Source: Jatrophihabitans sp. GAS493
Lineage (GTDB): Bacteria; Actinomycetota; Actinomycetes; Mycobacteriales; Jatrophihabitantaceae
Reading direction: 5' to 3'
Assembly (NCBI RefSeq): GCF_900230215.1
Contig: NZ_LT907982.1
Span: forward strand, 4,325,568-4,389,567
DNA length: 64,000 bases
This document shows, piece after piece, positions 1 through 62,897 of the stretch. Position numbers and translations under genes: made by a program. Within the stretch, counting starts at the first letter, position 1. The number at the start of each line of letters is the position of its first letter. The notes under the pieces are model-generated. The model ran no database searches. It was not told the origin of the DNA and saw nothing but the letters and a program-made list of their open reading frames with translations.

Positions 1-212
1 CCGGCCGGATGATGTGGCTCTTCTTCCTCACCACCGAGCTTGACCCGTTCGACGCCTACGACGGGCACCTGGAGATCTACCGGTCGATCGCGTCGGGGAA
101 CCAGCGGGTTGCCGAGGCGGTCGCCTATGCGCACATCGAGCGCGACCGCGACGAGTCGCTCGGCTTCCTCGATCAGCTCGGCGGCGGGGAGAGCTGCCGG
201 AACGCCGAATAG
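1..212 (+). CDS. GntR-family regulator, FCD domain (3' end only)
   Basis: Only the C-terminal ~69 codons are in the window; the gene enters from the left edge in the frame beginning at base 3 and stops with TAG at 210-212. The helical pattern HLEIYRSIASGN followed by a second helix AVAYAHIERDRDESL resembles the last helices of the FCD ligand-binding domain of GntR regulators, including the terminal metal-ligand-type His region. FCD regulators usually sense carboxylates or pathway intermediates and control neighbouring catabolic genes. The gene converges on the ureide/hydantoin operon and overlaps its last gene by 40 bases. It is the natural candidate to bind the palindrome at 3420-3435. The DNA-binding domain is outside the window, so the family call rests on a short stretch. 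Confidence 0.55.
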   Translation, partial: GRMMWLFFLTTELDPFDAYDGHLEIYRSIASGNQRVAEAVAYAHIERDRDESLGFLDQLGGGESCRNAE

Positions 213-1084
213 ATATGCCGCGGCTGGGTGAACCAGACCTCGGCGCTGTGCGCAGTCAGATGCTGCAGCGCCCGGGTCAGCCTCCGCAGCCGAAACGGCG
301 CACCGGAGATGAACGAGTGCACAACGATGCTCATCACCAGCGGCTGCTCCTGGGCCGCCAGCAGCAACTCATCGAACTCGTCGACGATCATCTCGGCGAA
401 CTCGCCGGCCGAGGCACCCCGTCCGATGATCGTCGAGCTGTCGTTGAGCTCCAGCGCGTACGGAATCGTCAGTAGCGGGCGCGAACCGGTAGACAGCCAC
501 ACCGGCTGATCATCCATCCGCAGGTCGAGCACGTACTCGTAGCCGGCTGCGACCAATGAATCAAGGGTGTTCGGAGTATGGGTCAACCACGGACTCGACC
601 AGCCGAGCGGGGGCACGCCCTCCTCCGCCGCGATCCGAGACGCGACCGCCCGAAGGTAGGCGAGTTCCTCATTCGGCGCGAAGTCGGCCAGCGAGTCGGA
701 GTTGGAGAGCCCATGCCCGACGACCTCGCTGCCGTGCCGCCGCGCGGCCGCCGTCACCGCAGCCGCCTCGTCGTACACATCGGTGTTGAGCAGCATCGTC
801 GAGGGGATGCCGAGTTCGGCCAGGCGATCGAGCAGCCGGAACGCGCCGACCCGATTGCCGTAGTCGCGCCACGACGTGTTCATCACGTCGGGCTCCCCGG
901 AGCTCGGCAGCAGGTTCTCGGTTAGCCCGTCGCCGAAACGGTAGGACTCCACGCCGAGCGCGACGTAGACCGCGAGCTTCTTTCCGCCGGGCCAGTGTCC
1001 GGCCGGTCGCTCGATGATCGGTGAGTAGCCGTACGGACTGCGATACCCAGCCGCCGCGGCGCTGCTCGCCGGTCGATCGCTCAT
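173..1084 (-). CDS. Polysaccharide deacetylase-fold (NodB/PuuE-like) hydrolase
   Basis: A 303-residue protein of the carbohydrate-esterase-4 / NodB fold, in the group that includes allantoinase-like PuuE proteins. Visible landmarks are AVYVALGVESYRFG near residues 38-51 (where classical NodB has the metal-binding TFDD), RVGAFRLLDRLAELGIPST near 78-96, the EVVGHGLSNSD segment (His-containing metal motif) and WSSPWLTHTPNT. The TFDD aspartates are absent, as in PuuE-type proteins that act on cyclic amides rather than sugars. It is the last gene of a three-gene minus-strand operon, its ATG overlapping the stop of the amidohydrolase by one base. With an amidohydrolase and a hydantoin-racemase homologue upstream, a role in hydantoin/allantoin-like ring opening is inferred. 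The substrate cannot be read from sequence. Confidence 0.75.
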   Translation of the reverse strand: MSDRPASSAAAAGYRSPYGYSPIIERPAGHWPGGKKLAVYVALGVESYRFGDGLTENLLPSSGEPDVMNTSWRDYGNRVGAFRLLDRLAELGIPSTMLLNTDVYDEAAAVTAAARRHGSEVVGHGLSNSDSLADFAPNEELAYLRAVASRIAAEEGVPPLGWSSPWLTHTPNTLDSLVAAGYEYVLDLRMDDQPVWLSTGSRPLLTIPYALELNDSSTIIGRGASAGEFAEMIVDEFDELLLAAQEQPLVMSIVVHSFISGAPFRLRRLTRALQHLTAHSAEVWFTQPRHIYSAFRQLSPPPS

Positions 1085-2619
1085 CAGCCGGTCACCCAGC
1101 GGTTCATCCCGACGTCGGTGGTACGGGCCCGATTGACCATCGCCTGGTAGTTCGGCAGCACTCGCTGCACGTCCTGGTAGGCCCCGGCTCGGGCACGCCG
1201 GGTCTTGGCGAAGAGCGCCCGGGCCTCATCCAGCAACGCCGGCTCATCCACGGTGACGATCTGCCCCTCCTCGAAGACGATCCGGCCGGCCACCATGGTC
1301 AGCACCACCGACTCGCCGGAGTGGCAGTAGACGAGCTGCTTCTCGATGTCGTTGAGCGGGGTAAAGGGCAGGGTATGCAGATCGAGCAACGCCAGATCGG
1401 CCAGATAGCCGGGGTGGATGGCCCCCAGTTGATGGGACTGCAGCAGCGCCCGGGCTCCCCCGTCGAAGAGGCAGTTCAACACCTCTCCGGCGGTTGGCCA
1501 CTGGTCACTCTCCAGGCCGCTGATGTTGTGGATCAGCCCGGCCATCTTCAGCACCGGCCACATGTTCACCGAGTCGTCGCAGATCGCCTCGTCCACGCCG
1601 AGGCAGATCGGGATACCCCGCTCGGCGACCCGGCGAAAGGGCATCACCCCGCTGCCCAGGCGCAGGTTGCTGATCGGATTGTGCGCGACGGTGGCCCCGG
1701 CGGCGGCGATCAGGTCAAGATCGGCGTCATCCACCCAGACGGCGTGGATGACGTTCATCCGGTTACTGAGCAGGCCGTGGTCGGCGGTGTACCGGACCAG
1801 GGAATGCCCGCCCATCCGTGGCAGTTCGCGGGCCAGCGTCCGCTGCAGCTTGGTCTCCAGCATGTGCGCGAACAACGGCAGATTGTGCCGGCGGCTGAGG
1901 TCGTCAATGGCTTCGAAGTATCCGACCGAGACGCGCTGCGGCGCCGAGACCGAGACGGCCGCGGTCAACCGTCCGGACTCCGCGCCGTGCCAGTTGCTGA
2001 TCAGATGGTCATACATCTTCAGCAACTCCCGGCTGTTCATCGGCGCGGGCGCGGTGAGAGCGCGCTGGAACTCCCGGTCGCCGGACATCACCGGCAGCTT
2101 CTCCGCTTCGGGTAGCTCCGGCTGGTCGAGCGCGACGCTGGCCCGGATTCCGGCGTCGGCATAGGCCTGCATCACCGCGTCGATGATCTCTGGCTCTGGG
2201 TACGGCATCAGGAAGGCATCGTCCTGCACCGCGGTGGTGCCGGTGCGCAGCATCTGCAGAATCGCCAGCATCGTGCGTAGATACGCCTCGCGCGGCGTAG
2301 CCCGGAACTCTGCTCCGGCTGGCGACTCCATGAGCATGAACAGCTCCAACGGCAGGCTGTCGAAGGAGCCCTTCAGGTGGTTGGCCGGCGAGTGGAAATG
2401 CGCGTTGATGAGCCCGGGTATCAGCAGGTGATGGCCGTGACCTTCGATGATCCGAGTGGATTCGCTGATCCACCGCCGGGCCTCAGCACCGATGGCCGCG
2501 ACGCGCTCGTCGTCGACCAGCACGTCCGTCGCCGCGGTGATGCTCCCGGCCACCGAGGCGTCGTAGACGAGCACGTCGCGGAACAGGATGCTCGACGAGC
2601 CACCGGTCACGCCCGTCAT
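1084..2619 (-). CDS. Amidohydrolase-superfamily deaminase/hydrolase
   Basis: A 511-residue metal-dependent hydrolase of the cytosine-deaminase/chlorohydrolase (AtzA/TrzN/SsnA) branch. The N-terminal beta-sandwich strand (LFRDVLVYD) leads to the metal motif LINAHFHSPANH near residues 69-80 (HxH). Further ligands appear as LPLFAHMLET, MNVIHAVWVDDADL (His) and CLGVDEAICDD (Asp). The C-terminal strand pair (HPGYLADLALLDLH) rebuilds the small beta domain, so the protein is complete. Its ATG overlaps the racemase stop in an ATGA arrangement, showing translational coupling. Inferred role: hydrolysis of a ring amide or amino group on a heterocyclic ureide, with the racemase and deacetylase-fold enzyme. 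Guanine deaminase-like or atrazine-type activity cannot be excluded. Confidence 0.85.
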   Translation of the reverse strand: MTGVTGGSSSILFRDVLVYDASVAGSITAATDVLVDDERVAAIGAEARRWISESTRIIEGHGHHLLIPGLINAHFHSPANHLKGSFDSLPLELFMLMESPAGAEFRATPREAYLRTMLAILQMLRTGTTAVQDDAFLMPYPEPEIIDAVMQAYADAGIRASVALDQPELPEAEKLPVMSGDREFQRALTAPAPMNSRELLKMYDHLISNWHGAESGRLTAAVSVSAPQRVSVGYFEAIDDLSRRHNLPLFAHMLETKLQRTLARELPRMGGHSLVRYTADHGLLSNRMNVIHAVWVDDADLDLIAAAGATVAHNPISNLRLGSGVMPFRRVAERGIPICLGVDEAICDDSVNMWPVLKMAGLIHNISGLESDQWPTAGEVLNCLFDGGARALLQSHQLGAIHPGYLADLALLDLHTLPFTPLNDIEKQLVYCHSGESVVLTMVAGRIVFEEGQIVTVDEPALLDEARALFAKTRRARAGAYQDVQRVLPNYQAMVNRARTTDVGMNRWVTG

Positions 2620-3341
2620 AGTTTCGGCTCCAGTTTCGGCTCCAGCCGCGACGGGCGGGCGAAAGTATTCGCCCGTGATGTCGTGAGTCCCTGGGCGAGC
2701 AACCCCTCCACCATCGTTACCGCGGCCAGCACGCCGTCGATCACCGGCACTCCCAAGCGATGCCGCAAAGGGGCTACCAGGTCGGTGAGTCCGGAGCAGC
2801 CGAGCACGATGGCCTCGGCGTCGTCGTCGGCGATCGCGGCCCGCGCCTCGTCGGCGAAGAGCTCGAGAAACTCCGTGGACCCCTCCTCCACCTCGGCGAC
2901 GGCAACCTCGACGGCCCGCACGCTGCAGCGATGATCCAATCCGAGCGTTCGGAGCACCCGATCGGACTGCTCCATCGTGCGGCGCGGCATGGTCACGATG
3001 CTGAACCGGTGGGCCAGCAGCGCGGCCGTCATCAGGGCCGCCTCCGTCATGCCGACGACCGGGCCGGTGGCTACTTCGCGGGCCGCCGGAACGCCGGTGT
3101 CACCGAAGCAGGCGACGACGTAGCCGTCCACGCCCAGTTCCTCGCCGCGGCGAATCTCCTCCAGCACTCCGACGGCACCCCATACCTCGTCGACGTGGCT
3201 CTCGACCGAGCTGACTCCTTTGGTCGGCGTCGCGCCCAGCAGTTCGGTGCCGGGGGCGGCGACGGATGCGGCGGCGGCCACCACCGCGTCGGTCATGGCC
3301 CGCGTCGTGTTCGGGTTCACGACCATGATCCGACGACTCAC
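2616..3341 (-). CDS. Asp/Glu/hydantoin racemase family protein
   Basis: A 241-residue member of the Asp/Glu/hydantoin racemase superfamily, which inverts a chiral carbon with two cysteines. The N-terminal RIMVVNPNTT signature is typical of hydantoin racemases. The catalytic cysteines are visible as VVACFGDTG (about residue 79) and IVLGCSGLTDL (about residue 179). It is the first gene of the operon and probably makes hydantoin-type substrates available to the downstream hydrolases irrespective of stereochemistry. The C-terminus ends in a short duplicated tail (LEPK LEPK L), a direct repeat at the DNA level (GTTTCGGCTCCA) that may have arisen by slippage. A maleate isomerase-like function is the main alternative. 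Confidence 0.85.
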   Translation of the reverse strand: MSRRIMVVNPNTTRAMTDAVVAAAASVAAPGTELLGATPTKGVSSVESHVDEVWGAVGVLEEIRRGEELGVDGYVVACFGDTGVPAAREVATGPVVGMTEAALMTAALLAHRFSIVTMPRRTMEQSDRVLRTLGLDHRCSVRAVEVAVAEVEEGSTEFLELFADEARAAIADDDAEAIVLGCSGLTDLVAPLRHRLGVPVIDGVLAAVTMVEGLLAQGLTTSRANTFARPSRLEPKLEPKL

Positions 3342-6561: not shown

Positions 6562-9366
6562 ACCGCTGGATTCTCCGCCGACCCCGAGCCGGCGGATGAG
6601 GTGCTCACCGAGCTGGTTAGCTCGCACGTCGGCCCAGAAAGCGGTGTGGAACTGGGTCGGCGGGGGCGCCTGATCGAGATTGTGGGCGATCGTCACCGGG
6701 TCCCAGCAGGGCTGATCGACCTCCGGGCTGACGACGCTGAAATCTGGACGTGGCACCGGCGTGAACGGCTGGAAGATCCACGACCCGATGTAATCGGTAC
6801 GGCGGACCAGGTTCTTCCAGCGCGACTCGGCGGCACCCGCTCCAGAACCTGCGACGCCGAGGTGCGCGTTCAGCGTGCGGAGCTGAGACTCCCTGAAATA
6901 GGCGGGGAATGCCCTACCGTAGAGGCGTCGGGCCGGGCAGGCCAGCGTCATCAGCGACACCCGTTCCATCGTCTGCGCGGGCAGCTGCGCGATGACGGCG
7001 GGCGCGATGATCGAGCCCTGGCTGTACCCGGTGAGCAGTACCGTCCGGGCCGGGACGGTGGGCCCGATCGGCGGCTGCGCCTCGTTCTGCAGGTGGTCCT
7101 GCACCTGCCAGGTAGCCGGGTCGAGCTGCCCCTCCAGCGTGTTGATATTCGGCACCGTCTCGGTGAGGATGCGAATCCGGTCCACCAGTTCCGGGATGGC
7201 CCGCTCGGCATAGCAGGGTGGGGCGAACGGGTGCGTGGCCCGTGGCCAGAAGGTGGCCACGTCCCAGATGGCACCGATACTCTTGCGGCTCGATTCGCTC
7301 TTGAAATCGGCGCGGAGCATGGCGACCACCACCCCGGCCAGGAAGAGTCCGATGAGGCTCTCCGCGACCGCCAGGCCATGCAGGTGCGACCCAAACGGCG
7401 AGTCGCCCGCGGCGCCGGCGATCTCACCGATGAGCGTCGCCAGAACGCCTCCGATCACCGCGCAGACGCCGACCACCCCGGCCTGATCGACCAGCAGGCC
7501 GATGGCCCACGACTTGGCGGTCTGGGTCTTGTTGTCGCTGTGCCCGGAGTCGTCGACCCAGCTCATCGGTGCGTCGAGGGCAGGCTCAGCGGTCGGCGCC
7601 ACCGGCAGATGCGACTCGTAGAAGTCGGCGATCGCGGAGTACCTGGCCCGCTCGTTGCGCTTCGGCACCCGGTCGAAGGTCTTCCAATTACTCACGTACG
7701 TCCGCCAGACCCAGACGATCGCGATGAGGACCCCGATGAGGACCCCGATCGGCTCCAGCGCAAATGCGTAGATCGGCCACGGAATCTGCAGCGGATTGGT
7801 GGCACCGCTCGTCGCAGCGCCTCCGCTCGGAAGCGGGGTGCCCACGAGCCGGGTCGCGAAGAGCGTCACCAGCGCGCTGAAGGTGCCGCCGAGGCAGACG
7901 GCCAGGGTGGCGAAGACGGTGGCGAGATGGCCGTAGGCGAAGGGGCCGGTGAGTTGCCGACGCTCCGGCCCGTCGGTGCCGATCGGGCGTCCGAGCAGCC
8001 GCGGCCAGAAGGGATCCGAACCGGACGGCCGCCGCGTGCCCAGCACCGGTGCCGCCCGCTTCACCAGCACCACGACCACCCCGAGGACGACCAGCAGTCC
8101 GAGTTGCACCAGCAGCACGATGAGGCAGATGTTGGTGAGGCCGGGCAGCGTCGCCGCCTGAGTCGGCTCGTTCAGACTCGGCCAGCCAGTGGTGAAGACC
8201 GAGGCCAGCAGGGCCAGCGCGGCGGCCCCCAATAGCGTGCGGCAGACCCAGGTGGCCGGCGCGGCCTGGCTCCACTTGGTCACCGGCCGGTCGAAGGTGA
8301 GCGTCTCGGAGTGACGGTCGGCCAGGTTGAGGCAGAGCGTCACACTCACCGCGAGCAGTACGGCACCGGCGAAGAGGCAGACGAAGATGCGATAGCCACC
8401 CGGGCTGTGGGCGAAGGTCGGGCGCGCGGCGATGAGTGCGGTGCTGGCCGCGGCCGCAGCGGCGTGCAGGCTGCGCTGCCGGCGGACCAGTTCCAGGCCG
8501 TTCCAGAACCGGGTCTGGGATAGCAGCCAGTTGGACCGGACCTCCGATTGGTTCTCGGTGGTCCGCCGTTCGTAGGAGTGGGCGGTCTTCACACTGATGA
8601 GCCAGAGCAGCACGATCACCACGGCCACCGCGGCCAGCGCCGCGGCCATGCGCTCACCCACCGTCCAGCGGGTGAACCATCCCAGCCACGACGGGAAGTG
8701 AGCCAGTCGGGCCTGAAAGGCGAATGAATTGAGGAAGATCGCGGCCACCGCGACGATGAACTCGACCGTGGCGGTGAGGGCCAGCAGGCGAAGCAGGGTC
8801 TGGGCCACCGCATGCTTGCCGTCGCGGCTGAGCCGCTGCGCCGGCGGCGGCACCGTCGGGTCGGCCTTGGTGGTCACCTCAGCGACGTACTCCTTGGCCG
8901 GCGGGAGCGCGAAGTGGGCCAGGTTGTAGAGCATGAACGGTGCGAGCAGGATCCAGGAGGCCGAGGCCAGCGGTGATTCGGTGAGCCCGCCCCAGGAGTA
9001 GGCCTCCAACTTCCACGGCACGCTGAGACCGGCCGTCCGGCTCGGGCCGCTGCCGCTGGGCGACCAGCGCCGGTAGAACATCGTGGTGGCGTCGCCGCCG
9101 ACCTGAAGCGCGTGCGGATGTTCAAGGATTGTCGGGCCATCCGAGCCGGAGACCCCGTGGATGCGCAGTTCGGTGACGTTGTTGAGCCCATCGGTGAAGG
9201 TGCCGGCATCCGGCAGTGACCCGGCGAGTCCGGCCTTCACCGGGCTTGTCCGATCTGACTTGCTGAAGCCCCAGGCCCCACCCAGGCCCAGGTCGATGGG
9301 TCGCTCGACCGATGGGCCGGTGATCGGGACGACCGGTTGGTCGTCGCCCCGTAGTGAATGCGTCAT
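6478..9366 (-). CDS. Large membrane protein with serine-hydrolase-like domain
   Basis: A 962-residue protein in three parts. The N-terminal segment carries the motif LRIHGVSGSDGPTILEHPHA (about residues 67-86) followed by FYRRW; I recognise this as the start of an actinobacterial family of uncharacterised membrane proteins. The middle has about eight hydrophobic segments (for example LALTATVEFIVAVAAIFL, LVVLGVVVVLVK). The C-terminal cytosolic part contains VLLTGYSQGSII, which matches a GxSxG nucleophile elbow of alpha/beta hydrolases, then LMTLACPARRLYGRAF. A membrane-tethered esterase or lipase is inferred; no substrate can be proposed. The ATG at 9366 has a GGGAG ribosome-binding site. The gene diverges from the KAP NTPase gene, from which it is separated by 191 bases. 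Confidence 0.8.
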   Translation of the reverse strand: MTHSLRGDDQPVVPITGPSVERPIDLGLGGAWGFSKSDRTSPVKAGLAGSLPDAGTFTDGLNNVTELRIHGVSGSDGPTILEHPHALQVGGDATTMFYRRWSPSGSGPSRTAGLSVPWKLEAYSWGGLTESPLASASWILLAPFMLYNLAHFALPPAKEYVAEVTTKADPTVPPPAQRLSRDGKHAVAQTLLRLLALTATVEFIVAVAAIFLNSFAFQARLAHFPSWLGWFTRWTVGERMAAALAAVAVVIVLLWLISVKTAHSYERRTTENQSEVRSNWLLSQTRFWNGLELVRRQRSLHAAAAAASTALIAARPTFAHSPGGYRIFVCLFAGAVLLAVSVTLCLNLADRHSETLTFDRPVTKWSQAAPATWVCRTLLGAAALALLASVFTTGWPSLNEPTQAATLPGLTNICLIVLLVQLGLLVVLGVVVVLVKRAAPVLGTRRPSGSDPFWPRLLGRPIGTDGPERRQLTGPFAYGHLATVFATLAVCLGGTFSALVTLFATRLVGTPLPSGGAATSGATNPLQIPWPIYAFALEPIGVLIGVLIAIVWVWRTYVSNWKTFDRVPKRNERARYSAIADFYESHLPVAPTAEPALDAPMSWVDDSGHSDNKTQTAKSWAIGLLVDQAGVVGVCAVIGGVLATLIGEIAGAAGDSPFGSHLHGLAVAESLIGLFLAGVVVAMLRADFKSESSRKSIGAIWDVATFWPRATHPFAPPCYAERAIPELVDRIRILTETVPNINTLEGQLDPATWQVQDHLQNEAQPPIGPTVPARTVLLTGYSQGSIIAPAVIAQLPAQTMERVSLMTLACPARRLYGRAFPAYFRESQLRTLNAHLGVAGSGAGAAESRWKNLVRRTDYIGSWIFQPFTPVPRPDFSVVSPEVDQPCWDPVTIAHNLDQAPPPTQFHTAFWADVRANQLGEHLIRRLGVGGESSGLSADGLTPAGLGPAGLSETEEPEGDQA

Positions 9367-9557
9367 CGAGTCTCCCGGTCAGCGCAGCGGCTCTCCGCCG
9401 GCCGTCGATACGAGCCCGCTGTCGCTACTTCACGTCTGCGCTGTCGATACTTGTCCTGTATCGAGATGAGGGTCAACACCCGCAGCCAAATACCGATTCA
9501 TCGCACTGGAACTCGTGCGGCAATTTCGGTGGCCCGGGCCCGGTAGCGGAGTACCTT

Positions 9558-12527
9558 ATGGCAATGGCCGATCAGCCGGACCGGGAGTGGCAGGCCCTCT
9601 CACGCGAGGGGCGCAGCGTCTTCGAGTGGGCCGCTGCCGCCAGCCGTGACCAGCCGATCGGTACTAGAGCCATACTCGTCGGAATTCTGCAGGTCGGCGA
9701 CCACAAGGGCGTGGCCGACGATCTGCTGCGACGCTTCGACGCGTCAGCTCGCGACGTCCTCGATGTACTCGAGCGCAGTGAGGCACCGCTCGACGTCGCC
9801 CCCTCCGGCCCGCTATCGCTTACGAGCGAGCCGGAGCTCACCGGTGGGGCACATCGTATCCTCATCGACGCCGGCGGGCTGCGCGCCGAAACCAATCGCC
9901 CGCAGATCGACCTGGAGTGCCTGTTTGGAGCGGTTCTCCGTACCGAGAGCACTGCGCGCAGTCTACTGATGCACGCGCTACCCAACGTAAATCTGGACGA
10001 TATCGCCGAGCACTACCGGCATTGGCTGGCCGAAGGTCAGGGTAGCTACGCCAAGGCCCTCGACCGCGACTTCCCGAATCTCTCACCCCAGCCTGCCGTC
10101 CCGGTGCCCAGCGGCTCCGGCAGTTCCTCCCCGACGCCACCGACACCGACGCCACCGACGCCACCGACGCCACCGACGCCACCGACGCCATCGGCTCCCC
10201 CCGACCCTGATTCACCGGGGTGGGGTTTCTTGGCAATCGTCAACCGGCACGGTCGGCGCACGACTTCGCCGTTCCAGAGAGCCGGGCTCGGGTTCGTCGC
10301 CAGCGACGGCACGATCGTGACGACCGTATCGCCGTCGATGATCACCGACATCTCACTGGGCGAAGAGAGCTTCGTCGTGCTGGAGGGAGGTGTTGACTTC
10401 GTACGGACCGTCGGCACCATGGTCGCCGCTCGTCTGACTCCGGCTCCCGACCACGACGCAGCGCTGACACCGCCGATCGCGACCGCTGAGCCAGGTAGCC
10501 GCGTGCAGTTCGTCGCAGTCTCCGAAGGCTCCGTGAAGATCATGGCCTACCTGAGTGGAACGGTCGCCGAATCGGAACTCGGTACCAACCGCTCCTTCAC
10601 CGTCGTACTGGACGTTCCTCAACCTGACGACATGGTGTCGAACGGCTCCCCCATCGTCGACGCCGATGGTCAGGTCGTGGGGATTGTCGCGGCCCTTGAC
10701 TTGCAGGACTCAGCTGGACTCTTCGCGTTAGGTGCAGACGTCATCACCGAGGTCCTCACCGGTAGCCCCCCGGCGCCGGATGAGCCCGACCCCTCGACCG
10801 CAGAAGCATCGCCCACGCCCCCGCTGCTCACCGTCGGGAACTCGATCGGCGCGCGAAACGATACCGTCTCCGACGAGGATCAGCTGGGCTTCCAGGTCTA
10901 CGTGGATGCATTCGCGTCACTGATCATGTCCAAGGATGTCAGACCTCCTTTGACGATCGGCATCTTCGGCTCCTGGGGCATGGGTAAGTCGTTCCTGCTG
11001 GAGCACATCCGAACCACCATCGAAGAGCGCCAGCGCGAGTCGCAGCCCGGGCCCAGGATCCACAGCGTCCGGTTCAACGCTTGGGAGTACTCCTCGGCCG
11101 CGGCGATCTGGCCGGCGCTGGTGCGAAAGATCGTGAAGGAACTCGACGATCTCAGTAGCTGGCCACGGCGGAAGCGGATCTGGGCACGGATCAAGTGGAA
11201 CCTTGCCCGGGAATGGCATTCGGCCCGGATCAAGATCGCCTCTGCCGCTCTGGCTCTGGGCGCGGCGTTGGCCTTCGCCGTCGGCGGTAGCGGCGTCCGG
11301 GCCGGCGTACTGAGCTTCGTCGGCCTGCTCGGCATCGGCACCGTCATCAAGGCGGCCAACGATCCGATCGCCAAATGGATCACCGCACTCTTCGCCGACA
11401 GCGACTACGGGGCCGGCCTCCCGCTGATGGCCGAGATCAAACACGATTTGGATGAGTTGCAGCGACGTCTCTACGCGCCCGCAAACGGTGCGGATCACGA
11501 GCCTGAGCAGGTGGGGCGGATCCTGGTCATAATCGACGACCTCGATCGCTGCGAGCCGGAGAAGGCAGTCGAGGTCCTGCAGGCGGTCAACCTGTTGCTG
11601 AACTTCGAGAGCTTCATCGTCTGCCTGGGCATCGACGCCCGAATCATCACCGCCGCCGTCGAGAAGCACTACGCGGGGCTACTGGGTAAGGCCGGTGCCT
11701 CCGGCTACGAATACCTCGACAAGATCGTCCAGATCCCGTTCCGAATTCCCGAACCCAACACCGAAGAGATCCAGGCGTTCCTTCGAAGTCAGCTAGCGGT
11801 AGTCGCCGAGGCCCGGCCCGAGGGGTCGACGGGCGCCGAAGGCACGCCGCCGCCGGGGACGGGCACGTTCGTCCGTTCACCGGCTCCTCCGTTGCGGCGC
11901 GGCGCCACGTCATCAGCCCAGCCGGACCGCGACGCGAACCCGGAGTCGCCCCCGGTCGCCCGCAGCGATCCCGGAGGCGGCTCGGGAACCGACTATGCCG
12001 CGCCGCCGGCCGTCTCCTTTACCGCCGACGAGCTAGCCGCGTTCGAGCTCTTCAGCGTCTACCTGCGTCCGAACCCACGTCATCTCAAACGCCTGATCAA
12101 CGTCTATCGTCTGGTGCGAACACTCGGATTCGCCAAGCGGCAATCGCTTTTTCGGGAGCACCCGGCTGCGGTGATTCGCTGGCTCATCATGTGGGGCCAG
12201 TGGCCGTACACGTCTCTGACGATGCTGCGCGAGCTGGATCGCTGCAGCAGCGACGAGCGGAAGGCGATGGATGCGGCCGAGATCGATCCGATGTTGACGC
12301 TGCTGGCTCGGGTGTCGGGGTCGATCGACAAGTCGCTGGTGGGGGCCCATGACGACGACCTGGAGAAGTTGCGCGGGCTACTCAGCGTCGACGGGTGCCG
12401 TCTCTCGCTGGCCGAGATCGGGAAGGTCCGTGACTACACGCTGAACTTCAACCCGGCGGTCGAGGAGCAACTCGGCCGTGAGAGCGGACTGGCTCCGGTT
12501 GGCGACCAGATGATCTCGCCCGCGTAA
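9558..12527 (+). CDS. Clp-repeat / pseudo-trypsin / KAP P-loop NTPase
   Basis: A 989-residue multidomain protein. Residues ~5-155 resemble the double Clp N-terminal repeat (GRSVFEWAAAASRDQPIGT, then a second copy around GGAHRILIDAG). A Pro/Thr spacer (about 190-215) is encoded by a 9-base repeat. Residues ~220-400 have a trypsin fold in which the usual TxAH has become TTVS and the GNSGGP motif has become VSNGSP, so catalytic His and Ser appear lost while DHDAAL keeps the Asp. Residues ~440-960 are a KAP NTPase: Walker A GSWGMGKS (471-478), an inserted hydrophobic pair (about 558-597), Walker B VIIDDLDRC (D660, D661, D663) and LRPNPRHLKRLINVY. KAP NTPases with trypsin-like sensor domains are known from predicted biological-conflict systems. 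The chosen ATG has GGAG six bases upstream; the frame is open further up, but that stretch looks non-coding. Confidence 0.85.
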   Translation: MAMADQPDREWQALSREGRSVFEWAAAASRDQPIGTRAILVGILQVGDHKGVADDLLRRFDASARDVLDVLERSEAPLDVAPSGPLSLTSEPELTGGAHRILIDAGGLRAETNRPQIDLECLFGAVLRTESTARSLLMHALPNVNLDDIAEHYRHWLAEGQGSYAKALDRDFPNLSPQPAVPVPSGSGSSSPTPPTPTPPTPPTPPTPPTPSAPPDPDSPGWGFLAIVNRHGRRTTSPFQRAGLGFVASDGTIVTTVSPSMITDISLGEESFVVLEGGVDFVRTVGTMVAARLTPAPDHDAALTPPIATAEPGSRVQFVAVSEGSVKIMAYLSGTVAESELGTNRSFTVVLDVPQPDDMVSNGSPIVDADGQVVGIVAALDLQDSAGLFALGADVITEVLTGSPPAPDEPDPSTAEASPTPPLLTVGNSIGARNDTVSDEDQLGFQVYVDAFASLIMSKDVRPPLTIGIFGSWGMGKSFLLEHIRTTIEERQRESQPGPRIHSVRFNAWEYSSAAAIWPALVRKIVKELDDLSSWPRRKRIWARIKWNLAREWHSARIKIASAALALGAALAFAVGGSGVRAGVLSFVGLLGIGTVIKAANDPIAKWITALFADSDYGAGLPLMAEIKHDLDELQRRLYAPANGADHEPEQVGRILVIIDDLDRCEPEKAVEVLQAVNLLLNFESFIVCLGIDARIITAAVEKHYAGLLGKAGASGYEYLDKIVQIPFRIPEPNTEEIQAFLRSQLAVVAEARPEGSTGAEGTPPPGTGTFVRSPAPPLRRGATSSAQPDRDANPESPPVARSDPGGGSGTDYAAPPAVSFTADELAAFELFSVYLRPNPRHLKRLINVYRLVRTLGFAKRQSLFREHPAAVIRWLIMWGQWPYTSLTMLRELDRCSSDERKAMDAAEIDPMLTLLARVSGSIDKSLVGAHDDDLEKLRGLLSVDGCRLSLAEIGKVRDYTLNFNPAVEEQLGRESGLAPVGDQMISPA
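10131..10191 (+). repeat. 9-base tandem repeat encoding Pro-Thr linker
   Basis: A unit of the form GCCACCGAC is repeated about five times in tandem with small variants on the left side. It lies in frame inside the KAP NTPase gene and encodes a (PTP) spacer between the Clp-like and trypsin-like domains. Copy number is likely to vary between strains by slippage. Confidence 0.85.
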
Positions 12528-12599: not shown

Positions 12600-12605
12600 G
12601 ACTGG

Positions 12606-12703
12606 GGCGCGTCTAGGGTTCCGTCGCTCACGCGGGTCTGGTCCGAGAGACGCACGCACGCCGCACTCGGGGTGCGCCACGGCGGGAGAAAAGCCCGGGA
12701 GAT
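12606..12703 (+). promoter_or_regulatory. Guanidine-I (ykkC subtype 1) riboswitch aptamer
   Basis: The leader contains, in the right order and spacing, the conserved blocks I know from the ykkC/guanidine-I aptamer: CTAGGGTTCCG (12613-12623), CTGGTCCGAGAG (12638-12649), ACGGCGGGAG (12679-12688) and AAAAGCCCGGGAGA (12689-12702). Between the second and third blocks a variable stem is expected; GCAC and GTGC segments can pair there. The aptamer binds free guanidinium and turns on downstream genes. Related ykkC subtypes (ppGpp, PRPP, nucleoside diphosphates) share much of this scaffold, so the subtype should be confirmed with a covariance model; the blocks read as subtype 1. It is followed directly by alternative hairpins and a four-gene operon. 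Confidence 0.85.
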
Positions 12704-12736
12704 TCGACCTCCCGGTCCGAAGCACCGGACCGGGAG
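12695..12736 (+). promoter_or_regulatory. Riboswitch expression platform: mutually exclusive hairpins
   Basis: Two stems share the same central strand. Stem 1 pairs CCGGGAG (12695-12701, the 3' end of the aptamer) with CTCCCGG (12709-12715). Stem 2 pairs CTCCCGGTCCG (12709-12719) with CGGACCGGGAG (12726-12736), an 11-bp perfect hairpin with a 6-base loop. Ligand binding should hold the 12695-12701 strand inside the aptamer or release it. Stem 2 ends 20 bases before the start codon without a T-run, so it could act as a terminator or hide the ribosome-binding region. The direction of switching is not decided by sequence alone. Confidence 0.65.
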
Positions 12737-12756
12737 CCAGACGAATTGGATGGCGC

Positions 12757-13866
12757 ATGAGCACACTCAGTAACTTCCAGGCGATACCGGTGGTCGACGT
12801 CTCCGGCCTCTACGGAAGCACCGAAGAGCAACTGGCGGTCGCCGCCGAGCTGAGCACGGTGGCCCGCGAGGTCGGCTTCCTCTATGTCACCGGCAGTGGC
12901 GTCAGTCAGGAGCTCTTCGACGACCTGCTCGCGGTGACGAAGGAGTTCTTCGCCCTCCCACTGGAGGAGAAGATGAGGACCTATATCGGCAACTCCTCCA
13001 ACCACCGCGGCTACGTGCCGACCGGCGAGGAGGGTGGCTACGACGAGGCCACGAGTGAGGCCGAGCAGAAACCGGCCGACCTCAAAGAGGCTTTCGACCT
13101 CAGCCTCGACCTGCCGGTCGACGACCCGGACTACCTGGCCGGCAACCCGATGGTCGGTCCGAACCAGTGGCCGGAACTGCCTGAGATGGCCGAGACGGTC
13201 AACCGCTACTACAACGCCGTGCTGGCCTTCGGCAAGGTACTGCTGCGCGGCTTCGCCCTCGCCCTGGGCGAGGCGCCGGAGACCTTCGACGCCATGGTCA
13301 CCAAGGCGCCCAGCCAACTACGCCTCATCCACTACCCCTTTGACCCGTCCGCGGTCGACTCCCAGGGCATCGGCGCGCACACCGACTTCGAGGTCTTCAC
13401 CCTCCTGAAGCCGACCAAGCCCGGCCTGGAGGTCCTCAACGGAGCCGGTGAGTGGATCGACGCGCCACCGATGGACGGCGCCTTCATAGTCAACATCGCC
13501 GACATGCTCGAGATCTGGACCAACGGCGCCTTCATCTCCACCACCCACCGGGTGCGCAAAGTCGCCGAAGAACGTTACTCATTCCCGCTCTTCTTCAACG
13601 TCGACTACGACACGCTGGTCGCCCCGCTGGAGCGCTTCCAGCGGGCCGACGGCACCAACAAGCTGCCGCTGAAAGCGGGCGAACACCTCTATGCCCAGAC
13701 GGTGCAGGTCTTCGCCTACCTGCGCAAGCGCCTGGCCGCCGGGGAGATCTCGATGCCCGACGTGTGGCTTGAGACCGGCTCCTTCGGGCGCGAGGCCGAC
13801 CTCAACCGGGGGGCCACCGGCGCCGCCGACCCAACCCTGGTCAGCGCCGCCGCGACGAACGGATGA
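12757..13866 (+). CDS. 2-oxoglutarate/Fe(II)-dependent oxygenase (IPNS-like)
   Basis: A 369-residue oxygenase of the isopenicillin N synthase / ethylene-forming-enzyme fold. The N-terminal DIOX_N part begins IPVVDVSGLY. The iron-binding facial triad is complete: H208 and D210 in GAHTDFEV and H264 in TTHRV. R273 and S275 (RYS) form the 2-oxoglutarate carboxylate pocket. The ATG at 12757 is chosen because the frame upstream lies in the riboswitch. This is the first gene after the guanidine-I aptamer and its stop overlaps the next start (ATGA). Inferred role: hydroxylation of guanidine or of an N-alkylguanidine whose breakdown releases guanidine; oxygenases of this fold are known to act on arginine and homoarginine. 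The substrate is not established by sequence. Confidence 0.88.
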   Translation: MSTLSNFQAIPVVDVSGLYGSTEEQLAVAAELSTVAREVGFLYVTGSGVSQELFDDLLAVTKEFFALPLEEKMRTYIGNSSNHRGYVPTGEEGGYDEATSEAEQKPADLKEAFDLSLDLPVDDPDYLAGNPMVGPNQWPELPEMAETVNRYYNAVLAFGKVLLRGFALALGEAPETFDAMVTKAPSQLRLIHYPFDPSAVDSQGIGAHTDFEVFTLLKPTKPGLEVLNGAGEWIDAPPMDGAFIVNIADMLEIWTNGAFISTTHRVRKVAEERYSFPLFFNVDYDTLVAPLERFQRADGTNKLPLKAGEHLYAQTVQVFAYLRKRLAAGEISMPDVWLETGSFGREADLNRGATGAADPTLVSAAATNG

Positions 13867-14504
13867 TCCCGGCCGAACTGACCGGCGGTTGGGTGCGCAA
13901 CGGCATCGCCATCGACGGCGCCGACCCGATCGAGACCACGGTCGTCTGGTGGCTGCAGGCACCCTCCAAGCACTGCGACCTGCGCGTTCCCCAGGTCGGT
14001 ACCGAGGGGGTGATGTCCTTTGCCGGCACCACGACCTGGGACGATCCGGTCCTCACCTGGCACCCGGAGATCGAGTTGGATCCGAGCATCTTTGAAGACA
14101 TCGGCGTGATCAGCTGGGACGGCGAGGACATGATGGAGACCGGCTCCTTCGCCGAAGGTGGCCGGGATGTCAGCTACGTCGAACGCTGGCAGCGGCTGCC
14201 GGGCAGCGAGGGAGAGCAGTGGGCCCTCAGCTGCGCCAACGGGCGCCTGGTCCGCACCGGTTCGTATGCGCTGACCATCGTCGACGCTCGGCCGGAAGGC
14301 GGCGGTTTCGCCGCGGTCGCCTGGACGCTCGGCGGCGGCACGGACGGAATCGCCGGCTGGGCACCGCATCACAGTTGGCCGGCGCAGGCGACGCTGCCAC
14401 CGCCGCCGATCACCATTGCCGACGGCGAGACGAGCGTTCTCTTGGCCGACGGCATCCTCTGGAACATTGACGAGCACCGGAAGGCAGCTGGTATCAGTGG
14501 CTGA
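13863..14504 (+). CDS. Beta-rich protein of unknown function
   Basis: A 213-residue soluble protein with no signal peptide or membrane segment. It consists of alternating short strands rich in Trp and Gly (GGWVRNGIAIDG, TTVVWWLQAPSKHCDLRVPQ, MSFAGTTTWDD, MMETGSFAEGG, YVERWQRLPGS), a layout expected for a lipocalin-like or HRI1-like beta-barrel. This resemblance is by pattern only. It overlaps the oxygenase stop by four bases and the flavin monooxygenase start by eight, so it is translated as part of the guanidine operon. A role binding a small ligand or intermediate is a guess. No catalytic motif was recognised. Confidence 0.8.
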   Translation: MIPAELTGGWVRNGIAIDGADPIETTVVWWLQAPSKHCDLRVPQVGTEGVMSFAGTTTWDDPVLTWHPEIELDPSIFEDIGVISWDGEDMMETGSFAEGGRDVSYVERWQRLPGSEGEQWALSCANGRLVRTGSYALTIVDARPEGGGFAAVAWTLGGGTDGIAGWAPHHSWPAQATLPPPPITIADGETSVLLADGILWNIDEHRKAAGISG

Positions 14505-15810
14505 GAAATCGCAGGCTGACAAGTTTCATCTGGCCTGGTTCCTGAACTTCGTCACCGACGACTGGAACGGAACCTGGGGCAACGGCGGGCAGGACATGTC
14601 CGGCGACTTCTATGTGGAGATGGCGAAGGATCTGGAGCGGGCCTGCTTCGACTACGTCATCATCGAGGACAAGCTGATGGTCTCGACGGCCTGGGGCGGC
14701 ACGATGGAGGCCGACCTCAAGCACGGCGTGAATCCGAAGCACGACCCGGTGCCGCTGGCCGTGCTGATGGCCGCCGGCACATCCCGTCTGGGTGTGGTGC
14801 CGACGATGTCGACGTCCTTCTACCCGCCATTCCTGCTGGCCCGGCTCGCCGCCACCATCGACCACATCGCCCGTGGCCGCTTCGGCTGGAACATCGTCAC
14901 CTCGGCTGAGGACCGTTCGGCCCAGAACTTCGGTATGGAGAAGCTCTACGAGCACGACGAGCGATACGCAATGGCCAATGAATACCTGGAACTCGTCACC
15001 GCCCTCTGGGACTCATGGGAGCCGGACGCCATTGTCCGCGACCGGGATACCGGCACCTTCGCCGACCACAACAAGGTGCACACCATCGACTTCGAAGGCA
15101 AGTACTACAAGTCGCGGGGTCCGCTGAACACCGTCCGCTCGCCGCAGGGGCATCCAGTGCTCTGCCAGGCCGGCGCCTCCGCGCCCGGACGGGCCTTCGC
15201 CTCGCGCTTCGCCGACACCATCGTCGCGACGGCCAACACGCCGGAGCGGATGAAGGCGTTCCGCGACGACATCCGCGCCCGACTGGTCGAGCAGGGACGA
15301 AAGCCCGATGACTGCAAGGTGCTCTTCCTCATCGCGCCGATCGTGGCCGACACCGTCGAGGAGGCGCAGGCCAAGAAGCTGCGCTGGATGTCCGACCCGA
15401 TGTTCATCGAGTTGGTGCTGACCACGATGGCCTCGATCACCGAGATCGACTTCTCCGTCTTCGATCTGGATCAGCCGCTGCCCCCGGTGACCACCAATGG
15501 CGAGCGGGGTTTCCTGGAGGCGTTCGCCAAACGGGCCGAGGGGAAGACGCTGCGGCAGGCCGTTATCGACGACGGTATGGGTGGGGCCAACGACTTCGTC
15601 GGCACGCCGGAGACCGTCGCCGACAAGATGGCCGAGTTCATGGCCGAGGTGGGCGGGGACGGGTTTCTCATCACCAGCCCGGAGAAGAAGCTGAATCGCC
15701 GCTACGTCACCGAGATAACCGATGGCCTGGTCCCGGAGTTGCAGCGGCGCGGGCTGGTGCGAACGTCCTACACCCATGAGCAGTTCCGTGAGAATCTGTT
15801 GGAGTTCTGA
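14497..15810 (+). CDS. LLM-class flavin monooxygenase (DszA/NtaA/SnaA type)
   Basis: A 437-residue luciferase-like monooxygenase of the FMNH2-dependent NtaA/SnaA/DszA group. Features include the N-terminal strand KFHLAWFLNF, the flavin-site region YVIIEDKLM, the family segment IDHIARGRFGWNIVTS, AQNFGMEKLYEHDERYA, RSPQGHPVLCQAGASAPGR and the C-terminal PETVADKMAEF. Start: GTG at 14497, overlapping the preceding stop, with GGAAGG upstream; the open frame upstream lies inside the previous gene. Such enzymes insert oxygen next to N or S and split C-N or C-S bonds using flavin supplied by a separate reductase, here encoded next door. Under a guanidine riboswitch, oxidation of a guanidino-N bond or of the product of the 2OG oxygenase is inferred. 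Confidence 0.88.
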   Translation: MAEKSQADKFHLAWFLNFVTDDWNGTWGNGGQDMSGDFYVEMAKDLERACFDYVIIEDKLMVSTAWGGTMEADLKHGVNPKHDPVPLAVLMAAGTSRLGVVPTMSTSFYPPFLLARLAATIDHIARGRFGWNIVTSAEDRSAQNFGMEKLYEHDERYAMANEYLELVTALWDSWEPDAIVRDRDTGTFADHNKVHTIDFEGKYYKSRGPLNTVRSPQGHPVLCQAGASAPGRAFASRFADTIVATANTPERMKAFRDDIRARLVEQGRKPDDCKVLFLIAPIVADTVEEAQAKKLRWMSDPMFIELVLTTMASITEIDFSVFDLDQPLPPVTTNGERGFLEAFAKRAEGKTLRQAVIDDGMGGANDFVGTPETVADKMAEFMAEVGGDGFLITSPEKKLNRRYVTEITDGLVPELQRRGLVRTSYTHEQFRENLLEF

Positions 15811-15815
15811 GTAAG

Positions 15816-16349
15816 GTGCGGGCCTGCGTCGTAGTCGGCAATCCGAAGCTGGGGTCGCGGACGGCCGCCGCGGGTACAACCGTCGCCGCCGCGGTCCTGG
15901 AGTCGCTGGAGTCGCTTGACGTCGACGTAGATGTCGGCCTCGGGGTCTCGGTCATCGAGCTCGCCGAGCTGGGATCGTCCCTGTTTTCGTGGGGTGATCC
16001 CGGCATCGCCGCGGCCAAGTCGACGGTGCTCGGCAGCGATCTGATCGTCTTCGCCTCGCCGGTCTACAAGGCGTCCTACACCGGGTTGCTGAAGGCCTTC
16101 CTCGATCAATTCGGTCGCGACGAACTCGCCGCGCGGGCTGTGGTCCCGCTGATGGTCGGGGCGTCGCCCGCTCATTCACTGGCCGTCGAGACCCAGCTAC
16201 GACCGGTGCTGGTGGAGATCGGGGCCAGCTGCCCGACCCGGGGCCTGTACCTGCTGGAGTCGCAGATCGAGGATCTCGCCCCGATCATCGACGATTGGCT
16301 CGCGCTCTGGGGCGGCGCGCTCAGGGCGGTAGTCTCCGCCGCGAGCTGA
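15816..16349 (+). CDS. NAD(P)H-dependent FMN reductase (SsuE/MsuE-like)
   Basis: A 177-residue flavodoxin-fold reductase. The FMN-phosphate loop is GNPKLGSRT (about residues 8-16) and the isoalloxazine region is FASPVYKASYTGLLKAFLDQF, both typical of SsuE/MsuE reductases. The GTG start lies five bases after the monooxygenase stop. It is expected to feed reduced FMN to the LLM monooxygenase immediately upstream, making a two-component system. It is the last gene of the guanidine operon. A small hairpin follows before the lipoprotein gene. Confidence 0.88.
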   Translation: MRACVVVGNPKLGSRTAAAGTTVAAAVLESLESLDVDVDVGLGVSVIELAELGSSLFSWGDPGIAAAKSTVLGSDLIVFASPVYKASYTGLLKAFLDQFGRDELAARAVVPLMVGASPAHSLAVETQLRPVLVEIGASCPTRGLYLLESQIEDLAPIIDDWLALWGGALRAVVSAAS

Positions 16350-54784: not shown

Positions 54785-54838
54785 GAGTTATCTCCTTGAT
54801 CGTCAGTCGCACTTGTCGAAACATCTTTGTTTTGACCT

Positions 54839-54917
54839 GGTCGTCACCCGGGGCACCCCACCGCGACGCGAGGGTTGCCAGCCAGCAAGCCGGGGCTATC
54901 TACTGGCGTTCATGACC
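54839..54917 (-). promoter_or_regulatory. SAM-IV riboswitch (copy A)
   Basis: Read on the minus strand this starts GGTCATGAACGCC, has AGCCCCGGCTTGCTGGC, the invariant GGCAACCCTC, then GGTGGGGTGCCCCGGGTGA and closes with CGACC pairing to the start. These are the conserved blocks and order of the SAM-IV class, a SAM-binding RNA found in Actinomycetales. High SAM should repress the downstream leader, ABC transporter, oxidase and acetyltransferase genes. Confidence 0.93.
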
Positions 54918-56409: not shown

Positions 56410-56427
56410 GGATCTGAAGTCAGATCC
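56410..56427 (-). promoter_or_regulatory. Hairpin in the expression platform of SAM-IV copy B
   Basis: GGATCTG and CAGATCC pair over 7 bp with a four-base loop, between the riboswitch and the ribosome-binding GGAGC of the class V aminotransferase gene. It may compete with a structure that hides the ribosome-binding site. Confidence 0.45.
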
Positions 56428-56458
56428 TGCGCTTGCCGGCTCCGATTGGGGTCGGCCT

Positions 56459-56536
56459 TGTCGTCACCCGGGGCACCCCACCGCGGAGGAGGGTTGCCGG
56501 CCAGCTAGCCGGGGCTTGACGCTGGCGCTCGTGACA
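56459..56536 (-). promoter_or_regulatory. SAM-IV riboswitch (copy B)
   Basis: Minus-strand blocks: TGTCACGAGCGCCAGCGTCA, AGCCCCGGCTAGCTGGCC, GGCAACCCTCC, GCGGTGGGGTGCCCCGGGTG and closing GACGACA. This is the closest of the four to the SAM-IV sequences I know. It controls the cysteine-desulfurase-like gene 74 bases downstream. Confidence 0.93.
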
Positions 56537-60817: not shown

Positions 60818-60885
60818 GTTCTGTTCCACCTTGAGATGTTCGGCCGTGTACGGCCTCGCGCTTACGCCGACGATTGTCGATGTCC

Positions 60886-60962
60886 GGTCGTCACCTGGAG
60901 CACCCCACCGCGCGGAGGGTTGCCGGTCAGCAAGCCAGGGCTTGATGCTGACGCTCATAACC
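60886..60962 (-). promoter_or_regulatory. SAM-IV riboswitch (copy C)
   Basis: Minus-strand blocks: GGTTATGAGCGTCAGCATCA, AGCCCTGGCTTGCTGACC, GGCAACCCTCC, GCGGTGGGGTGCTCCAGGTG and closing ACGACC. Paired changes relative to copies A and B (CCCTGG with CCAGG instead of CCCCGG with CCGGG) show that base pairing is conserved. Confidence 0.93.
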
Positions 60963-61308: not shown

Positions 61309-61387
61309 GGTTATGAGCGTCAGCGACAAGCCCTGGCTTGCTGACCGGCAACCCTCCTCCACTGGCGGGGTGCTCCAGGTGACGACC
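61309..61387 (+). promoter_or_regulatory. SAM-IV riboswitch (copy D)
   Basis: Blocks in order: GGTTATGAGCGTCAGCGACA, AGCCCTGGCTTGCTGACC, GGCAACCCTCC, GGCGGGGTGCTCCAGGTGAC and closing GACC. The same compensatory CCCTGG/CCAGG pairing as copy C is present. A GCGGGC/GCCCGC hairpin follows at 61390-61409 and may be the expression platform. It governs the leader peptide and two flavin monooxygenases. Confidence 0.93.
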
Positions 61388-61462
61388 AGGCGGGCTGATC
61401 ACGGCCCGCAAGCGTGGACGTCGGTGCAGCTACGCCTGTCCGACCCGAAGAAGGAGAGAAGC

Positions 61463-61694: not shown

Positions 61695-62897
61695 ATGCCC
61701 GAACCAGTCGTACCCGTCCATCTCGCCGCCGCCCTCGACGGAGCCGGCTGGCACCCGGCCGCCTGGCGTGAGCCGAACGCCCGCCCAACCGAGCTTCTCG
61801 ACGCCCGCTACTGGGCCGATCTGGCGGGCGAGGCCGAACGGGGTCTGCTTGACTTCATTACCCTGGAAGACTCCTTGGGTCTGCAGACCGGTCGCTACCT
61901 GGAGCCCGACCGGCGCACCGACCAGGTACGCGGACGTCTGGACGCGGTGCTCACCGCGGCCCGGATTGCGCCACTGAGCAAGCACATCGGCATCATTGCG
62001 ACGGCACTCGTCACGCATACGGAGCCGTTTCATCTCTCCAAGGCGATCGCCACCCTGGACTACGTCAGCACCGGCCGGGCCGGGGTACAGGTGAAGGTCT
62101 CGGGTCGGGCCGACGAGGCGGCGCTCTTCGGGCGGCGGGAGATCCCGGCCATCCGCTTCGAGGACTTCCAGCAGCCAGCGGCCCAGCGCCTGATCGCGGA
62201 ACTCTTCGACGAGGCCGAGGACTACGTCGAGGTGCTGCGCCGGCTCTGGGACAGCTGGGAGGACGACGCGGAGATCCGCGATGTCGCCACTGGTCGGTTC
62301 GTTGACCGCGAAAAGCTGCATTACATCGACTTCGCCGGGCGTCGCTTCAGCGTCAAGGGGCCCTCGATCACGCCGCGTCCACCGCAGGGGCAGCCGATCG
62401 TGAGTGCCCTGGCCCACCAGGAGCGCCCGTACCAACTGGTCGCCACCTCGGCCGACATCGGCTATATCACGCCGACCGACGCGGCGGATGCCGCCCGGAT
62501 CGTCAAGCACATCCGTTCGCTGCAGGTCGCCGCTGGGCGTGAGCATGAGACGGTCCACGTCTTCGCCGATCTGGTGGTCTTCCTCGACGGCGACTCCGAG
62601 ACCGGGTCCAATCGGCGCGAGCGCCTGGACGCCGCCGCCGGCGAGGAGTACCGAAGCGATGCCCAGATCTTCACCGGCTCCGCGGCCCAGCTGGCCGACC
62701 TCGTGGCTGAGTGGCAGCAGGCCGGCATCGCCGGGTTCCGGCTGCGGCCGGCGGTCCTTCCCGACGATCTGGAATCGATTGGGCGCCGCCTGGTTCCCGA
62801 ACTACAGCGCCGCGGCCTCTTCCGCACCGAGTATCAGGGCAGCAGCCTGCGTGACCTCCTCGGTCTACCCCGCGCCGCCAATCGCTACGCCGCGTAG
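61695..62897 (+). CDS. LLM-class flavin monooxygenase (DszA/NtaA type)
   Basis: A 400-residue FMNH2-dependent monooxygenase. VPVHLAAALDGAGWHPAAW, LLDFITLEDSLGLQTG, FHLSKAIATLDYVSTGRAGV, YVEVLRRLWDSWEDDAEIRD, FSVKGPSITPRPPQGQPIVS and a C-terminal VPELQRRGLFRTEYQGSSLR place it in the group that opens C-S or C-N bonds. It is the first structural gene of the SAM-IV copy D operon. Oxidative release of sulfur (sulfite or thiol) from an organosulfur compound is inferred. No flavin reductase is present in the visible part of the operon. Confidence 0.9.
   Translation: MPEPVVPVHLAAALDGAGWHPAAWREPNARPTELLDARYWADLAGEAERGLLDFITLEDSLGLQTGRYLEPDRRTDQVRGRLDAVLTAARIAPLSKHIGIIATALVTHTEPFHLSKAIATLDYVSTGRAGVQVKVSGRADEAALFGRREIPAIRFEDFQQPAAQRLIAELFDEAEDYVEVLRRLWDSWEDDAEIRDVATGRFVDREKLHYIDFAGRRFSVKGPSITPRPPQGQPIVSALAHQERPYQLVATSADIGYITPTDAADAARIVKHIRSLQVAAGREHETVHVFADLVVFLDGDSETGSNRRERLDAAAGEEYRSDAQIFTGSAAQLADLVAEWQQAGIAGFRLRPAVLPDDLESIGRRLVPELQRRGLFRTEYQGSSLRDLLGLPRAANRYAA

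Follow-up and report, generated by a model that had tools for sequence, protein, structure and literature searches.

A guanidine-I riboswitch operon of Jatrophihabitans sp. GAS493 combines an MgdH/MgdL-type pair with a candidate flavin-dependent N-dealkylating module

In Vreelandella boliviensis, methylguanidine is hydroxylated by MgdH, a 2-oxoglutarate (2OG) oxygenase, and the hemiaminal is cleaved by MgdL, a small beta-barrel protein that serves as N-(hydroxymethyl)guanidine lyase through D49 and R51 (PMC12508155, 2025). The two adjacent genes lie between gca and atzF in a guanidine-carboxylase operon under guanidine-I control, which also has a second (class II) riboswitch and an ATP-binding cassette (ABC) transporter (PMC12508155). 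Another described enzyme is the nickel guanidine hydrolase (GdmH, or comammox guanidinase), in which Thr, His, Trp and Glu occupy the diagnostic positions (PMC11410670). Here we describe a four-gene operon that follows a guanidine-I riboswitch in a 64,000-nucleotide stretch of the Jatrophihabitans sp. GAS493 genome (contig NZ_LT907982.1, positions 4,325,568 to 4,389,567; hereafter the window, in whose coordinates features are given). Like the V. boliviensis system, it joins guanidine-I control to adjacent genes for a 2OG oxygenase and a small beta-barrel protein with a D-x-R motif. In contrast to that system, the pair stands with a flavin monooxygenase and a flavin mononucleotide (FMN) reductase, and a guanidinase/urease route takes the place of the carboxylase operon in this genome. 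The operon is real and is largely explained by the 2025 discovery; the flavin monooxygenase module is its new element.

The riboswitch is followed by genes for a 2OG-Fe(II) oxygenase, a small beta-rich protein, a flavin monooxygenase and an FMN reductase, here called open reading frames (ORFs) 1 to 4. ORF1 and ORF2 overlap by 4 nt, ORF2 and ORF3 overlap by 8 nt, and 5 nt separate ORF3 from ORF4, in agreement with a preliminary description, made from the sequence alone, of four overlapping or nearly touching genes. ORF1 (12757-13866, +; Pfam DIOX_N 1.4e-29, 2OG-FeII_Oxy 7.8e-21) has the complete facial triad reported there (H208, D210 and H264) and, by alignment, the 2OG-binding RxS motif R273/S275. 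It is 77-81% identical to its counterparts at two related loci (L065 and L029), and 58% identical over 343 amino acids to MgdH of an operon with the gene order CgdA, CgdB, Gca, MgdH, MgdL (L203), an arrangement matching the one in V. boliviensis. ORF2 (13863-14504, +) was initially called a beta-rich unknown; the first word stands, but the second does not, as the protein matches MgdL. A motif scan and alignment identified WLQ followed by D39-L-R41, plus E92, Y105, E107 and W109; D39-L-R41 corresponds to the published catalytic D49-x-R51, and the D-x-R with its neighboring W, E and Y residues is invariant across ten MgdL homologues. Beyond the L203 operon, CgdA, CgdB, Gca and AtzF are combined with MgdL and MgdH at L035 and L036. 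Because ORF1 and ORF2 match MgdH and MgdL, the D-x-R is kept, and homologous pairs lie within guanidine-carboxylase operons, the oxidative step appears to be one already known, with a methylated guanidine as substrate. Thus, the two proteins are candidates for a methylguanidine hydroxylase and an N-(hydroxymethyl)guanidine lyase, and the earlier suggestion that the first oxidation is a new route is not borne out. At L035, MgdL shares a single open frame with allophanate hydrolase (7615-10296, +), a possible AtzF-MgdL fusion, which is followed by MgdH. A search of plasmids for MgdL returned no match.

ORF2 also has a weak Pfam HRI1 match (1.4e-6). The predicted structure of one ORF2 homologue, rather than of ORF2 itself (AlphaFold; mean predicted local confidence, pLDDT, 90.5), has yeast HRI1 (YLR301w; 3rby) as its best Foldseek match (E 2e-5, probability 1.00), with lipocalin-like barrels lower; the TM-score of the HRI1 match is about 0.5 and the identity 12%. 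The MgdL family and HRI1 thus have a structural and weak sequence likeness, and HRI1 might share related chemistry.

Several points weigh against assigning methylguanidine to this pair. ORF1 and ORF2 were compared with homologues in the published gene arrangement, not with the V. boliviensis proteins themselves, and ORF2 shares only about 30% identity with the gammaproteobacterial MgdL of that arrangement. Loci in mycobacteria-like genomes place the pair next to allantoicase-like and hydantoin-racemase-like genes and have no guanidine-I RNA, so that other substrates are possible for it. One such substrate would be a ureide-type hemiaminal of the allantoin pathway, and hydantoin-type genes also seem to be present in the window at 173-3341; given the guanidine-I control seen here and the carboxylase operons at L035, L036 and L203, we regard a ureide substrate as very unlikely. 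ORF1 could instead be an oxygenase of the ethylene-forming-enzyme or homoarginine-hydroxylase type, which are enzymes that release guanidine (PMC12508155), here from arginine or homoarginine. Its best Protein Data Bank (PDB) relative, 9ovh, is annotated as 'ethylene/succinate-forming enzyme' (E 9e-61). However, 9ovh is without the GEE and HTD[FY]E residues that alignment shows to be conserved in nearly the whole MgdH set, and ORF1 homologues of 57-64% identity travel with MgdL, often with guanidine-carboxylase genes, which leaves this function for ORF1 with only a slight chance of being correct.

The leader was identified as guanidine-I in the preliminary description, and a covariance-model scan confirms it: the RF00442 match is 82.9 bits against a gathering cut-off of 63 (E 2.9e-13), spans the full model (positions 1-107), and has no competing family in a scan of all Rfam. 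The aptamer occupies 12602-12703 (+); its end is as previously given, whereas its start lies at 12602 rather than 12606. It is the sole guanidine-I RNA that the RF00442 search found in the 4.88 Mb genome, and among 14 control genomes only Bacillus subtilis has a match. A hairpin (CUCCCGGUCCG/CGGACCGGGAG; 12709-12736, +) lies 3' of the aptamer and is kept in the L065 and L029 leaders with an apparent compensatory G-C to A-U change. The 5' arm of this hairpin has a second possible partner in aptamer bases 12694-12701 (CCCGGGAG), so that two states would compete, and the hairpin is the probable expression platform. The sequence has no U-tract after the hairpin, and translational or Rho-type control is therefore possible. 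Folding of the leader alone is uninformative (z -1.34). Since the class-I RNA of V. boliviensis binds guanidine, not methylguanidine (PMC12508155), induction of the Jatrophihabitans operon would, by analogy, be product-driven too.

The genome also encodes a likely fate for the guanidine. The preliminary description held that none of the described bacterial guanidine routes is present, which holds for the operon, though not for the genome as a whole. A 387-amino-acid arginase-family protein is encoded outside the window and not beside the riboswitch (G000:C1:1044360). In the PDB it matches the Nitrospira and Synechocystis guanidinases best (9FEK/7OI1; E 6e-161 and 1e-151), and it keeps all the diagnostic residues, Thr105, His222, Trp313 and Glu344 (N. 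inopinata numbering, from alignment to 9FEK with an assumed chain offset of 2). In another genome of the genus, an orthologue (77% identity) has as neighbors a guanidine-I RNA and an APC-type permease, the latter read from sequence. Urease is encoded at C1:756350, also outside the window. The carboxylase route was considered for this genome and rejected: no TIGR03425 match for CgdA/CgdB and no full-length Gca were found, the sole CT_A_B protein being PxpC-like, 274 amino acids long and located beside PxpA/PxpB-like genes. A full-length allophanate hydrolase was likewise set aside as a guanidine-carboxylation gene because it is grouped with a transporter and isochorismatase-like genes instead of CgdAB. 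When the Nitrospira guanidinase was given guanidino compounds, including methylguanidine, only agmatine besides guanidine gave urea, in trace amount (PMC11410670); demethylation ahead of the guanidinase therefore makes sense. The predicted path runs from methylguanidine to guanidine, urea and ammonia.

The flavin monooxygenase and FMN reductase were named as such at the outset, and profile searches bear this out. ORF3 (14497-15810, +; GTG start) belongs to the NtaA/DmoA family of FMN-dependent monooxygenases (TIGR03860, E 1e-125; 419.9 bits against a curated cut-off of 279.7), and its PDB relatives are YtnJ/MoxC, DszA/BdsA, DmoA and NtaA. Its relatives NtaA, DmoA and DszA act at a position adjacent to a heteroatom, by hydroxylation or cleavage. 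ORF4 (15816-16349, +) is an SsuE/MsuE-like NAD(P)H:FMN reductase (PF03358 FMN_red, 6.2e-22); it matches the SsuE model at 5.2e-27, yet under the equivalog cut-off, and its L029 counterpart is 60% identical. It presumably supplies reduced FMN (FMNH2) to ORF3. The two-component monooxygenases NtaA, DmoA and DszA resemble this module in both the ORF3 family model and the pairing with an SsuE-like reductase. They differ from it in that no characterized member is linked to guanidine metabolism in the literature searched, which covered few subscription papers and nowhere connected guanidine riboswitches with a flavin monooxygenase.

The link between ORF3 and guanidine comes from gene context. The clade closest to ORF3, made up of the window, L065 and G449, is confined to loci where a guanidine-I RNA and then MgdH precede it (3/3 genomes, two families). 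The preliminary description had proposed looking for the same four genes behind ykkC RNAs elsewhere, and they were found in G449, a genome of a different family, with a guanidine-I RNA and identities of 81, 61, 87 and 60% for ORF1 to ORF4. A further genome (G551, locus L065) has the RNA, MgdH (77%) and ORF3 (91%). Among 70 ORF3 relatives drawn from about 85,000 genomes, two more loci contain guanidine genes: MgdL, MgdH and ORF3 are together at L092, and L094 of Acidocella facilis has MgdL, ORF3, an ABC transporter, AtzF, Gca, CgdB, CgdA and a guanidine-I RNA at 89.7 bits. These distant relatives, from Acetobacteraceae and Acidocella, appear to have joined guanidine gene clusters separately. 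Because L092 and L094 are in another branch of the tree than the window clade (support of the inner forks varies), the association between ORF3 and guanidine genes probably arose twice. Chance alone would give about 0.01 such loci among the 70 relatives, a rough estimate that takes MgdL in 16/399 genomes of the order and a 20-kb neighborhood in each 5-Mb genome; the MgdL frequency may differ in Alphaproteobacteria. Two observations count against reading the operon as one pathway for substituted guanidines: the nearest group outside the clade (73%) has no guanidine context, and at L065 ORF3 follows MgdH with no MgdL between, on a contig that ends just past ORF3.

What the module oxidizes can be narrowed by the genomes in which it occurs. 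An oxygen-dependent pathway for guanidine or an alkylguanidine was proposed initially, and of these two the alkylguanidine is retained. Guanidine itself is an unlikely oxygenase substrate because this genome has a guanidinase-type enzyme and urease, and G449, in which all four genes recur, encodes the carboxylase route (CgdAB, a Gca-type protein and AtzF). A new oxygen-dependent degradation of guanidine by ORF3/ORF4 would suit the guanidine-I control and an operon that contains no known guanidine-degrading enzyme. However, ORF3 coexists with either guanidine route, as expected of an upstream step, and the guanidinase here keeps its diagnostic residues, and we consider direct oxidation of guanidine improbable. 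Since ORF3 is present with a guanidinase in this genome and with the carboxylase route in G449 and L094, its most likely place is a step ahead of guanidine, with a substituted guanidine as substrate, and it is probably an N-dealkylating oxygenase. The NtaA and DmoA families act on many xenobiotics, and the sister clade in Mycobacterium and Streptomyces is without guanidine neighbors; the neighbors of these relatives gave no substrate clue. ORF3/ORF4 might accordingly use a sulfone, sulfide, alkane or iminodiacetate and be tied to the other genes only by the common promoter, or clear a by-product. The conservation of the overlapping gene order in two families and the second, separate association with guanidine genes argue against a non-guanidine substrate, which we judge unlikely but worth keeping in view.

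Taken together, the locus would probably constitute a guanidine-induced catabolic operon for N-alkylated guanidines. By analogy with the known riboswitch class, guanidine would bind the guanidine-I aptamer and switch the operon on. Homology to the characterized enzymes suggests that MgdH (ORF1) would use O2 and 2OG to hydroxylate the methyl group of methylguanidine, and that MgdL (ORF2) would split the hemiaminal into guanidine and formaldehyde; the guanidine would pass to the nickel guanidine hydrolase encoded elsewhere, and the urea to urease. ORF3, with the reductase ORF4, would add a second oxygenase, of the flavin type. It would most likely hydroxylate the carbon beside a guanidine nitrogen of a different substituted guanidine; N,N-dimethylguanidine is one example, and N-carboxymethyl compounds (creatine or guanidinoacetate, for instance) are others. 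The product, methylguanidine or guanidine, would feed the same path. The second oxidation postulated at the outset is plausible as the work of ORF3, and is the new part. This would carry the methylguanidine demethylation pair of 2025 into actinobacteria, with a predicted full path from methylguanidine to ammonia through guanidinase and urease, not carboxylation. ORF3 would be a candidate enzyme for freeing guanidine from alkylated precursors, and the natural sources of guanidine are a question that such guanidine-releasing enzymes help to answer.

At several loci that have an MgdL homologue but yielded no MgdH, other oxygenases lie nearby: FA_desaturase-family membrane proteins at L094 (8909-9916), L198 (5947-6945) and L201 (14889-15965), and a Rieske oxygenase at L204 (14728-15909). 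This suggests a constant lyase with exchangeable oxygenases, although adjacency alone is no proof. As a tentative extension, somewhat short of an even chance, ORF3/ORF4 may be a two-component flavin-dependent N-dealkylase of alkylguanidines, and as such a new class of guanidine-releasing enzyme. MgdL may, more broadly, be a general hemiaminal lyase working with interchangeable 2OG, flavin, Rieske and membrane di-iron oxygenases, each of which would make the nitrogen of a different N-substituted guanidine available.

Elsewhere in the window, polysaccharide-deacetylase-type allantoinase-like, amidohydrolase-like and hydantoin racemase-like genes, read from sequence only, lie at 173-3341 (-); a similar racemase adjoins MgdL/MgdH in the mycobacteria-like loci L003 and L004. 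A large KAP-family P-loop NTPase (PF07693, 2.1e-43) is encoded at 9354-12527 (+), and its PADLOC matches to PifA/QatA are confined to the NTPase region. Four SAM-IV riboswitches (92.7-109.5 bits) fall within 7 kb, at 54804-54917 (-), 56424-56536 (-), 60853-60962 (-) and 61309-61420 (+). They surround ABC-transporter-like genes, and the last is followed by two luciferase-family monooxygenase-like genes at 61695 and 62942.

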